The notes under the pieces were generated by a model. That model was given only the letters and a program-made list of their open reading frames with translations. It made no database searches and was not told the origin of the DNA. From positions 1 to 33,919 of the IMG/VR virus record IMGVR_UViG_3300032240_002942: a DNA stretch of 33,919 nt. One strand, given 5' to 3'. The DNA comes from a virus. Positions 24,999-28,433 of the stretch are shown here, piece by piece. A program made the translations under genes and the position numbers. Numbering within the stretch: the stretch's first letter is position 1; every line of letters starts with the position of its first letter.

Positions 24999-25601
24999 AT
25001 GTCTACAGTAAACGATTTTTTGTCGGCTATAAAAAATAATGGTATATCCAGACCATCTCGATATGAAGTATTAATTGGAAAACCTACGGGACCAAGAGGA
25101 AATTTTTATCGATTTGACAGAGATGTTAGTCTAATGTGTGAGATTAGTCAATTACCTTCTCTTATCATACAAACCAAACAATTAAAAATACAAGGTCCAG
25201 CATATCAAAGACCGATAGGAATGGATTTTAATGGCGATGGTATTCCAATGACATTTTATGTTGATAAAAATTTAAAAATTAAAACATTTTTTGACGATTG
25301 GATGTATTCTATAGTAAATCCAAATTCATTTAATGTCAAATATCAATCAGAATACGTAACTACTTTACGTGTATCCCAATTAGATGAATCTGATAATATT
25401 AAATATACTATCGAATTGCTTGATGCATTTCCAAGATCAATGGGGCAACTAGATTTAAATGCAAGTTCAGCTAATCAAATGCATAGATTAACTGTTGTAT
25501 TTGCATACAGAAAATGGCAAGTTATTAAGCCATACAATACACAAGATAATTATAGTGATACATTACAACAGCCTTATCAATTTCAACCACAGGATAATTA
25601 A
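24999..25601 (+). CDS. Tail-tube-family protein (gp19/gp54 type)
   Basis: This 200-residue protein has the tail tube fold of contractile tails. It shows ISRPSRYEVLIGKP near the N-terminus, LMCEISQLPSLIIQTKQLKIQGPAYQRP near residues 45-72, IPMTFYVDKNLKIKTFFDDWM near 82 and a final RLTVVFAYRKWQVI strand. These are gp19-type hallmarks. Because it is encoded beside baseplate and chaperone genes and away from the terminase-sheath region, it may be the tube initiator (gp54 role) and not the main tube protein. A Shine-Dalgarno-like AAGGA precedes the ATG. Confidence 0.88.
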   Translation: MSTVNDFLSAIKNNGISRPSRYEVLIGKPTGPRGNFYRFDRDVSLMCEISQLPSLIIQTKQLKIQGPAYQRPIGMDFNGDGIPMTFYVDKNLKIKTFFDDWMYSIVNPNSFNVKYQSEYVTTLRVSQLDESDNIKYTIELLDAFPRSMGQLDLNASSANQMHRLTVVFAYRKWQVIKPYNTQDNYSDTLQQPYQFQPQDN

Positions 25602-25615
25602 TTTTAGGACTTATT

Positions 25616-26305
25616 ATGACATTGCCAGTATTAGAAACACCAACTTATGAATTGATTTTACCATCAACAAACAAAAAAATAAAATATAGACCATTTTTAG
25701 TTAAAGAATATAAAATTTTATTAACTAATGTGGGCAATGAAGCCAACGAAATTTCTAGAATAGTTATTGAACTTGTAGATAATTGTACATTCAAAGCATT
25801 GGATATGAGTAAGTTAGCTCATTTTGATGTCGAATATTTGTTTTTAAATATTAGAGCAAAATCTATTAGTGAAACAACAGATTTAGTTATTAATTGTGAA
25901 TGTGGTGAAAAAATAGATTATTCTATGGATTTAACTAAAATTGAAGTTAAAAAAGAAAAAAATATAGTAAATAAAATAATGTTGACTGAAGATATTGGTG
26001 TCGTAATGCGATATCCGAAGTTTGATGAAATTATCGAAATACACAATAATATATCTTCAGAAAAAATAATAAAATTAGTATGTAATTGTATAAGTGCAGT
26101 ATATACAAAAGAAGATTATTATGATTCTTTCACTTCTGAGGAAATGGAAGTTTTTGTCAATTCATTTACGAAAAAGCAATTTGATTTATTAGAAGACTTT
26201 TTTAAGAATATTCCAAAAATTATACATGATATACATGTAGATTGTCCGGCATGCGGCAAACACAATAATGTGAAATTGGAGGGACTTGAAAATTTTTTCG
26301 TCTAA
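25616..26305 (+). CDS. 26: gp26-type baseplate hub assembly / tail chaperone (short frame-0 product)
   Basis: This 229-residue protein belongs to the T4 baseplate hub assembly family (gp26/gp51 type). Features are KYRPFLVKEYKILL near residue 23, LAHFDVEYLFLNIRAKS near 67, and a four-Cys pair C94-x-C96 and C210-x-x-C213 that probably binds zinc. The gene ends GAA AAT TTT TTC GTC TAA, which carries overlapping slippery heptamers (see the slip site). A -1 shift would add 63 residues and give a 291-residue form, analogous to the G/GT pair that chaperones the tape measure in other tailed phages. Both products are predicted. Confidence 0.88.
   Translation: MTLPVLETPTYELILPSTNKKIKYRPFLVKEYKILLTNVGNEANEISRIVIELVDNCTFKALDMSKLAHFDVEYLFLNIRAKSISETTDLVINCECGEKIDYSMDLTKIEVKKEKNIVNKIMLTEDIGVVMRYPKFDEIIEIHNNISSEKIIKLVCNCISAVYTKEDYYDSFTSEEMEVFVNSFTKKQFDLLEDFFKNIPKIIHDIHVDCPACGKHNNVKLEGLENFFV
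26290..26299 (+). promoter_or_regulatory. Programmed -1 ribosomal frameshift site
   Basis: Frame-0 codons AAT TTT TTC include two canonical X-XXY-YYZ heptamers: A AAT TTT (26290-26296) and T TTT TTC (26293-26299). The -1 frame has a TGA at 26287-26289 just before and frame 0 stops at 26303-26305. The only window in which a ribosome can change frame is therefore about 16 bases and contains the slip site. An AU-only 7-bp hairpin (26318-26334, loop GGT) lies 18 bases downstream and is a weak stimulator at best. Confidence 0.8.
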
Positions 26306-26490
26306 CTCTTTCTCATGATAATTTGGTAAATTATTATCAATCGAATTTTAATTTAATGCATCACCATAAATATTCATTGACAGAAATTGAAAATATGGTA
26401 CCGTGGGAAAGAGAAATATATACTACATTATTGATTAATTATATTAATGAGGAAAATGAAAAATTAAAACTTAAATCTTTAGGAAAATAA
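26299..26490 (+). CDS. -1 frame extension of gp26 (GT-like C-terminal part)
   Basis: This is a 63-codon frame entered from gp26 by -1 slippage, beginning RLTLSHDNLVNYYQSNFN and continuing with YSLTEIENMVPWEREIYTTLL and a charged C-terminus ending KLKSLGK. The E-x-M-x-P-W-E-R-E-x-Y-x-x-L-L segment resembles the second reading frame of tail assembly chaperones, where it contacts the tape measure. It has no convincing start of its own: the upstream TGA leaves only a TTG and an internal ATG (26356) without a Shine-Dalgarno. The holin-like ATG follows two bases after its stop. An independent 44-residue peptide from the ATG is the alternative. Confidence 0.78.
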   Translation, partial: RLTLSHDNLVNYYQSNFNLMHHHKYSLTEIENMVPWEREIYTTLLINYINEENEKLKLKSLGK

Positions 26491-26492
26491 TC

Positions 26493-27023
26493 ATGGCCAA
26501 AAAAGAAGAAGAAAAACAAGCTAAAAGAGATGAAGATTGGATGAGCAAAAAATGGCGTCCAATGATGGCAATTATGTACATGGCATGTTGTGCATCAGAT
26601 TTTATATTATTCCCTATTATGTATACTGTTGTTCAATTCTGGGAAACAGAAGCAGCAAATGATGCATTTAGACAATGGACCCCGATAACACTTCAAGGCG
26701 GTGGATTATTTCACATTGCCATGGGTGCAGTTTTAGGTATCTCTGCGTATGGTAGAACTCAAGAAAAATTAGGCGGCGCAGCTGGCAATACACCTTTAGG
26801 AACACCAAATGCAACAAACATACCATCAAGCGGGTTTACAGCATCTAGCGCACCTGCGCCAAGCGGATTCGGATCAAGCAGTGGATTCGGTGCCACAACA
26901 GCATCATCAGGATTCGGAGGAACAGCAGCGCCTACATGCTCAGGTTTCGGAACACCCCCAGCATGCACAGCGACGCCAACCACAACTCCAGCAATCAGAC
27001 CAATAATTAAAAAGCCAACATAA
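26493..27023 (+). CDS. Holin-like membrane protein with FG-rich tail
   Basis: This 176-residue protein resembles the GTA-type three-span holin family. It opens with a charged stretch and the motif DWMSKKWRPMMAIMYM, then DFILFPIMY and LFHIAMGAVLGISAYGR. Two hydrophobic spans are visible (residues ~23-49 and ~68-86). A holin would permeabilise the inner membrane at the end of infection and release or expose the hydrolase. The last ~80 residues are low-complexity Ala/Ser/Thr/Pro with four Gly-Phe-Gly triplets (near 125, 131, 140 and 151) and two Cys, and DNA there is visibly richer in GC than its surroundings. It follows the frameshift ORF by two bases. Confidence 0.8.
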   Translation: MAKKEEEKQAKRDEDWMSKKWRPMMAIMYMACCASDFILFPIMYTVVQFWETEAANDAFRQWTPITLQGGGLFHIAMGAVLGISAYGRTQEKLGGAAGNTPLGTPNATNIPSSGFTASSAPAPSGFGSSSGFGATTASSGFGGTAAPTCSGFGTPPACTATPTTTPAIRPIIKKPT

Positions 27024-27026
27024 TAA

Positions 27027-28433
27027 ATGGTTAATAGTAATCCTGCAGTAAAAGATTTAGCAGATCAAATAACCTCATCTGAAAATAATAAAGAGATAGA
27101 GAAATCAATAGTAGAATTAAAAGAATCTATTGATTCTCTATCTGAAGAAATTAAAAAACGAGGTGTGAAATCTGTAAAAAATTCATCAGGGGAATCCGAT
27201 GAAGACAAACTTCCTTTTTTAACTTTAATAAAAGGATTATCCAAGGGATTTTTAAATCCTTTTACTGATACTGATGTATTAGAAAAACAACTATCATCAA
27301 AGCAGGAAGAAATTCCTGCTGATAAATTAAAAACAAATGAATTAGAAACTGATGAGTCTACACCCGAAATAAAAACTAAAAATATAAAAGAAAATACTAC
27401 AGAAAATGTTGAAAAGACTGAAAAGAAAAATAAAACTAAAGATCCAGAATTAAATAATAGATTATTGGTTAGTATTTCCCAAATGCTTAATGAGTTAAGA
27501 GAAAATGCTGTAGAAAAACAATTATTGGAAGAAGCTATAAAAATAAGAAATATTTTAGAAAAAGAAAATACACAAATACCCACTGTAGAAAATATAATTT
27601 CTGCTGAACACAATTTAACAGATTTATCTAATATTGCACCTGAAACAAATGGTAAAATAGAACCTTATCTAGAAGAAGAAAAAAATAAAGCACCAATAGT
27701 CACTGCAAATGCATCAACTCCGCCAATACACGGTGAAGTTATTGTTCCTGATCAAGATAATGAAGAAAAGAAAGCAAAAGATAGAGAACTATTAGCAGAT
27801 GCAATTGCAAACAAATTATCAAGTATTTTGGGAAATTTGGGTGGCGGCACGGATGTATCTGATTTTTTCGAAAAAGAACTTGGCAATAATAATTCTAAGA
27901 TAGGAAAGGCAATTGACGCACAAAGTAAAAAGTTTGGAAAATTGGGTAAGTTTGGCGCAATTAGTTCATTGGGAGCAAGCGCAACAGAACAATTAAGTTC
28001 TGAAGATTTTGTCGATGAAAAAGCTTCTGATTACTTAAAATCACTTGGTATAGATTCATCTGAGACACCAAATAAAAATATAGAAAATAAATCTTCTGAT
28101 ACATCTAATATAGGATCACTTGATTTAATAAAAAATTTATTGGGCGCTGATTCTGTTGGGCCTAAACCATCACCAATGTCTCAAAATAATAAAGCGTTGC
28201 CATTACAGCCAAAAGAAAATCAAAATGCAGGTAGTGTTTTGCAAAATATATCAAAGGCAAATGAAGAATTAAAATCACAAGAAACACAGATGTATACTCA
28301 GCAAATGATGCAACCTATTATATCAAATCAAACAACTACTAATAATTCTCAAACCGTTTTGCCTGCATCTCCCGTACCTAATCAAAATACCAATTCTTAT
28401 CTGCAATGGATAAAATCAAGAGCTAATTACTAA
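27027..28433 (+). CDS. Helical, low-complexity protein; possible tape measure or virion component
   Basis: This 468-residue protein is rich in Lys, Glu, Asn and Ser, with helical heptad stretches at residues ~15-45 (IEKSIVELKESIDSLSEEIKKR) and ~145-190 (LLVSISQMLNELRENAVEKQLLEEAIKI), a disordered middle, a Gly-rich segment near 270 (LSSILGNLGGGTDVSDFFEKELG) and a Gln/Asn/Pro-rich end. There are no membrane spans or enzyme motifs. It is the last gene of the plus block, after the chaperone pair and the holin-like gene, where a tape measure often sits. T4 gp29 has 590 residues. A tape-measure role is an inference from position only. Confidence 0.8.
   Translation: MVNSNPAVKDLADQITSSENNKEIEKSIVELKESIDSLSEEIKKRGVKSVKNSSGESDEDKLPFLTLIKGLSKGFLNPFTDTDVLEKQLSSKQEEIPADKLKTNELETDESTPEIKTKNIKENTTENVEKTEKKNKTKDPELNNRLLVSISQMLNELRENAVEKQLLEEAIKIRNILEKENTQIPTVENIISAEHNLTDLSNIAPETNGKIEPYLEEEKNKAPIVTANASTPPIHGEVIVPDQDNEEKKAKDRELLADAIANKLSSILGNLGGGTDVSDFFEKELGNNNSKIGKAIDAQSKKFGKLGKFGAISSLGASATEQLSSEDFVDEKASDYLKSLGIDSSETPNKNIENKSSDTSNIGSLDLIKNLLGADSVGPKPSPMSQNNKALPLQPKENQNAGSVLQNISKANEELKSQETQMYTQQMMQPIISNQTTTNNSQTVLPASPVPNQNTNSYLQWIKSRANY

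Follow-up and report, generated by a model that had tools for sequence, protein, structure and literature searches.

The G-T frameshift of tail genes is widely conserved in long-tailed phages "except T4" (Atkins et al. 2016, PMC5009743). Does a virus with a T4-type tail module then make one protein from its gp26 gene, or two? The question is raised by a 33,919-nucleotide stretch of viral DNA (positions 1 to 33,919 of IMG/VR record IMGVR_UViG_3300032240_002942), which is referred to here as the window. Two overlapping slippery heptamers, A AAT TTT and T TTT TTC, lie just before the gp26 stop codon, and the −1 frame is open beyond them.

Two reading frames at the end of gp26

The tail module of the window contains, in order, genes for head closure, DNA end protector, and tail tube, followed by the gp26 ORF (Table 1). 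The PF12322 profile match covers residues 9–228 of gp26; that is, the gp26 family is matched over its full length. The final frame-0 codons are TTG GAG GGA CTT GAA AAT TTT TTC GTC TAA, which give the protein a C terminus of ...LENFFV and place the single codon GTC between T TTT TTC and the stop. In the −1 frame, 66 codons (26290–26487) are open before a TAA (26488–26490), with the next ATG at 26493. For 66 random codons of the same composition, the probability of staying open is about 0.0014. The predicted slip product has 228 + 63 = 291 residues. The positions of the slip site, TGA, and ORFs given in the initial annotation proved exact to the base when rechecked on the sequence, and translation reproduced its predicted products of 229 and 291 residues, together with the junction LENFF-RLTLSH. 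The G+C content of the extension (26290–26490) is just 22%, compared with 32% for the window.

Table 1. Features at and around the 3' end of gp26 in the window
Feature	Position	Strand	Evidence
Tail tube gene, directly upstream of gp26	24999..25601	+	phrog_45 E 2.8e-36
gp26 ORF, putative short tail assembly chaperone, 229 aa	25616..26305	+	PF12322 E 2.6e-58, phrog_150 E 3.8e-60; N-terminal fold
Internal Shine-Dalgarno-like GGAGGG, 9 nt before T TTT TTC	26278..26283	+	position/sequence; synonymous-site selection in relatives
TGA closing the −1 frame just upstream of the slip site	26287..26289	+	sequence
Slippery heptamer A AAT TTT, in frame 0	26290..26296	+	mostly clade-specific in relatives
Slippery heptamer T TTT TTC, in frame 0, conserved putative shift site	26293..26299	+	T TTT TTN in 111/113 relatives
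−1 extension, 63 codons + TAA, gp51-like domain of the predicted long form	26299..26490	+	phrog_634 E 1.1e-27; pN/pS 0.30; alignment
gp26 frame-0 stop TAA	26303..26305	+	sequence
Weak A-U hairpin at the position of the relatives' stem-loop, unsupported here	26316..26339	+	−4.2 kcal/mol; z +0.35
468-aa ORF at the tape measure position, candidate only	27027..28433	+	position; homologues at same place in relatives

The heptamers by themselves are weak proof of frameshifting, since X XXY YYZ occurs in frame at two other places in the gp26 ORF (25843 and 25957). The case for the slip site, as made from sequence, rests on its conservation in relatives.

Conservation of the slip site and selection on the −1 frame

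We gathered 146 loci from IMG/VR and phage genomes, of which 113 were left after dereplication at ≤90% amino acid identity. For the larger IMG/VR scan among these, the gp26 profile was trimmed before the slip site, so that the scan did not select for the site. An in-frame T TTT TTN is present in the last 14 gp26 codons of 111 of the 113 dereplicated relatives, against an expectation of 0.0095 per gp26 tail calculated from the rest of the same ORFs. The carriers include cyanophages, Straboviridae (ValKK3, Ah1), and rhizobial and Pseudomonas phages. It is T TTT TTC that is conserved; A AAT TTT is mostly limited to the window's clade and a few others. The codons at the site are as distinctive as its presence: the T|TTT coding is used for the slip-site Phe-Phe in 105 of 105 cases but for only 7 of 121 Phe-Phe pairs elsewhere (p 1e-56; p values here and below are indicative, as kinship among the relatives is accounted for only through dereplication). 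The second of these Phe codons is TTC rather than TTT by 90:15, compared with a background of 330:908. Judging by these counts, codon choice at the slip site is constrained beyond the amino acids Phe-Phe.

The two relatives that have no T TTT TTN are Ackermannviridae-type phages, Salmonella phage S117 (L061, 2200–2450) and Vibrio phage K361 (L062, 2180–2450). Both retain a gp51-like −1 extension with the motif GYS..E...MPW, and the K361 junction has TAATG; these phages may use another slip site or re-initiation. In five other loci (L098, L125, L136, L138, and L069), the slip site lies 9–13 codons before the frame-0 stop, compared with 0–2 elsewhere, and the short form therefore has a longer private tail.

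The extension itself bears the marks of a protein. Over 57 independent pairs of relatives, the pooled pN/pS of the −1 frame is 0.30, with changes by codon position of 276/148/477, and the comparison of the window with its relative L002 gives a dN/dS of 0.085 in this frame. The first 17 −1 codons, which precede the first ATG in the window's clade, have a protein-like pattern too (93/65/248). These patterns indicate that the −1 frame evolves as protein-coding sequence. The initial annotation had read the locus as a −1 frameshift and had named a conserved slip site and purifying selection on the −1 frame as its checks. Both are found among the relatives, and the reading is thus supported.

The −1 peptide is similar both to phrog_634 ("baseplate hub assembly catalyst") and to the end of the gp26 profile phrog_150. 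T4 gp51 (249 aa) combines the same elements, belonging to the gp26 family over residues 1–201 and to phrog_634 over residues 147–246; T4 gp26 matches the gp26 family only, not phrog_634. When a profile of the predicted fusions was aligned with T4 gp51, the alignment ran through the slip junction (hhalign probability 99, E 4.5e-18, 231 columns). By sequence comparison, then, the extension of the window is the C-terminal domain of T4 gp51. What had been described as a GT-like extension is an extension under protein selection, and its label needs correcting to gp51 (phrog_634). Since the collinear alignment of gp51 spans the entire predicted fusion, T4 gp26 corresponds to the short form and gp51 to the long form.

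A programmed −1 ribosomal frameshift thus very probably yields a short and a long tail assembly chaperone from one gene. Most ribosomes would stop at the TAA at 26303 and release gp26, the short form of 229 residues. A minority would move back by one base on T TTT TTC (26293–26299), where the two Phe tRNAs would shift their pairing from UUU-UUC to UUU-UUU, and would continue to 26490 to make a long form of 291 residues, composed of gp26 and the gp51 domain. The sequences themselves show the site, the open frame, their conservation, the selection, and the gp51 identity; the occurrence and the frequency of slippage are inferred. By analogy with lambda gpG/gpGT, the part shared by the two forms is expected to be the one that binds the tape measure, with tube or hub subunits recruited through the gp51 domain.

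Signals around the slip site and other explanations

The GGAGGG upstream of the heptamers has a counterpart among the relatives. The Glu located five codons before the slip site is encoded by GAG in a ratio of 60:16, compared with a background near 613:1764 (indicative p 2e-21). Predicted pairing with the 16S anti-Shine-Dalgarno sequence peaks at −12 from the heptamer, with a mean of −6.8 kcal/mol and flanks near zero, and exceeds that of synonymous shuffles (z −15). In 60 of the 67 loci with a GAGG, this motif ends 10 nt ahead of the heptamer. An internal Shine-Dalgarno (SD) sequence stimulates −1 shifts at a spacing of 9–14 nt, as in dnaX (PMC5009743), and the GGAGGG of the window falls within this range. 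Its position suggests that it could stimulate slippage here.

Downstream of the heptamer, the relatives and the window differ. In the relatives, the only stretch with an unusual folding energy is the first 50 nt past the heptamer (mean z −1.7, with 39% under −2); elsewhere across −300 to +190, z is about −0.2. Synonymous shuffles give a z of −1.6 after the heptamer versus −0.1 in the following 54 nt. Long helices mostly begin 5–7 nt past the heptamer, and their sequences differ between clades. Covariation in the two best stems is weak, with a few compensatory or G-U changes but mismatches as well. In the window itself, a stem-loop is not supported (synonymous-shuffle z +0.35). The strengths of SD and stem are not traded off across the relatives (Spearman −0.07, p 0.47).

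The locus therefore shares some features with Escherichia coli dnaX and departs from others. Like dnaX, the window has an internal SD about 10 nt upstream of a slippery heptamer, and relatives have a stem-loop. Unlike dnaX, it uses another heptamer, its shift would lengthen the product, and its downstream stem-loop is unsupported. We found no report of an internal SD or a stem-loop at the slip site of a T4-like chaperone gene, although Vladimirov et al. (2022) may contain one. We think it rather likely that the gp26/gp51 shift of the T4 superfamily is driven by an ancestral cassette consisting of an internal SD, T TTT TTC, and a stem-loop whose position, not sequence, is conserved; that T4 lost this cassette on gaining separate short and long genes; and that single clades lost parts of it, the window's clade seemingly the stem-loop.

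The usual public annotation reads the locus differently, with gp51 as a separate short gene whose translation depends on coupling or on re-initiation once gp26 has terminated, and with the overlap and the poly-T as incidental. Records such as those of P-SSM2, ValKK3, and S-CRM01 list gp51 as its own gene, an ATG lies 1–4 codons after the slip site in 36 of the 111 relatives, where a separate gp51 would be possible, and an SD before gene ends can serve coupling as well (PMC5009743). However, the SD considered here, about 10 nt from the heptamer, is too distant from any start codon for this role, and no start codon is conserved. The first possible −1 starts in the window are TTG 26323 and ATG 26356, either of which would drop the residues FFRLTLSH.. 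that alignment with relatives shows to be conserved; the first ATG in the clade of the window comes 19 or 32 codons past the slip site. Protein-level selection also acts on codons that precede any start, a separate gene would leave the invariant T TTT TTN codon choice unexplained, and T4 gp51 is the full fusion, not a short piece. A separate gp51 is thus very unlikely, and for the window's clade we reject it given the lack of a conserved start and the selection on the codons before any start.

The six T in a row could instead cause RNA polymerase to slip and add one U, which would give the same −1 product by ordinary translation from a subset of the mRNA. Yet the bacterial slippage described in PMC5009743 takes place on nine consecutive A or T, and relatives do not favor longer T runs, as the preference for TTC at the second Phe illustrates. 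An SD upstream and, in relatives, a stem-loop 5–7 nt downstream suit ribosomal slippage. Given a T run of insufficient length and the preference for TTC over TTT, transcriptional slippage is very unlikely and was rejected. Homopolymers are also error-prone positions, and one T lost or gained in sequencing or assembly could split a single-frame gene in two, as could decay to a pseudogene. The recurrence of the same two-frame layout in 111 relatives, from many projects and including finished isolate genomes, refutes this explanation and leaves it with practically no probability. Programmed ribosomal frameshifting is the reading that we retain.

Probable short and long chaperones of T4 and other phages

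The gp26 and extension of the window fall in the same families as T4 gp26 and gp51. In T4, the two forms come from two separate genes, 26 and 51, on opposite strands, whereas one gene is predicted to give both in the window. T4-type gp26 ends GLKEFFELL, with the Phe-Phe encoded in GAG TTC TTT, and the next gene is 25. Because of this coding, the slip site is lost in T4, and the T4-type Phe-Phe reads as a protein relic of the lost shift site. Across L057 (3058–3094) and L154–L162, T4-type gp26 mostly keeps Phe-Phe as TTC TTT. The spread of the frameshift, which reaches into Straboviridae (ValKK3, Ah1), suggests that the two-gene state of T4 is derived. The initial annotation had remarked that T4 is not usually given as an example of such shifts. 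T4 is a real exception, with separate genes for a short gp26 and a long gp51. Most sampled relatives of T4 have the shift, and T4 would be the derived exception in which two genes supply the two forms. Earlier genetic work on genes 26 and 51 of T4 then has a simple reading, in which the two encode a short and a long chaperone.

Public records either give the gp51 domain its own gene, as a "baseplate hub assembly catalyst," or omit it. The stand-alone "gp51" entries of cyanophages and other relatives probably do not represent genes but the terminal part of a frameshift product. Across the 14 annotated phage genomes that carry the slip site, gp26 and gp51 are never joined in one coding sequence, and four of these records (Ah1, S-CAM1, S-MbCM6, and ACG-2014h) leave gp51 out altogether. 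As presented in papers that cite it, the study of Vladimirov, Gautam and Davidson (2022, Virology 566:9-15) described TAC genes of T4-like phages (PMC10885494, PMC12846349). According to those papers, certain T4-like phages have two genes of this kind, a short one and a long one (PMC10885494), and T4-like TAC-N genes are known to contain poly-T slip sequences (PMC12846349). Because T4-like TAC genes with poly-T slip sites were, on these accounts, described in 2022, a frameshifted chaperone is not new in kind.

As in lambda gpG/gpGT (mechanism in PMC5009743), the predicted slip is by −1 near the end of a gene adjoining the tail tube gene, a short and a long form are predicted, and the fold is chaperone-like. 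Unlike in lambda, the heptamer is a different one, no sequence similarity was detected, and the tail is of the T4 contractile type. The fold was assessed from an AlphaFold2 model of gp26 (mean pLDDT 86). Structure comparison gave just two entries at Z ≥ 5, HK97 2ob9 (Z 7.6 over 84 residues, 4.3 Å) and YqbN 3klu (Z 6.8), in moderate matches confined to about residues 1–86; YqbN has been termed a TAC (PMC9603447). A Foldseek search of the model against the PDB gave no significant match, with 2ob9 second at E 0.78, and a search of the gp26 profile against PDB sequences gave nothing relevant. In a viral structure library, the best matches were gp26 proteins, including a "baseplate hub assembly chaperone." The model thus points, with moderate strength, to an N-terminal fold resembling the HK97 and YqbN tail assembly chaperones, and by analogy gp26 and its long form would act as chaperones.

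The ORF at the tape measure position has a Lys/Glu-rich, fast-evolving product with homologues at the same place in relatives. A search for its identity gave no match in Pfam, PHROGs, or phages; the gene at the same place in Rhizobium phage RHph_I1_18 is annotated as tape measure. Between this position and the chaperone gene, the window has a 176-aa ORF (26493–27023) that is kept in close relatives; its product resembles holins weakly (PF11351 E 0.0011, phrog_3427 E 1e-4) and has a tail rich in SGFG.
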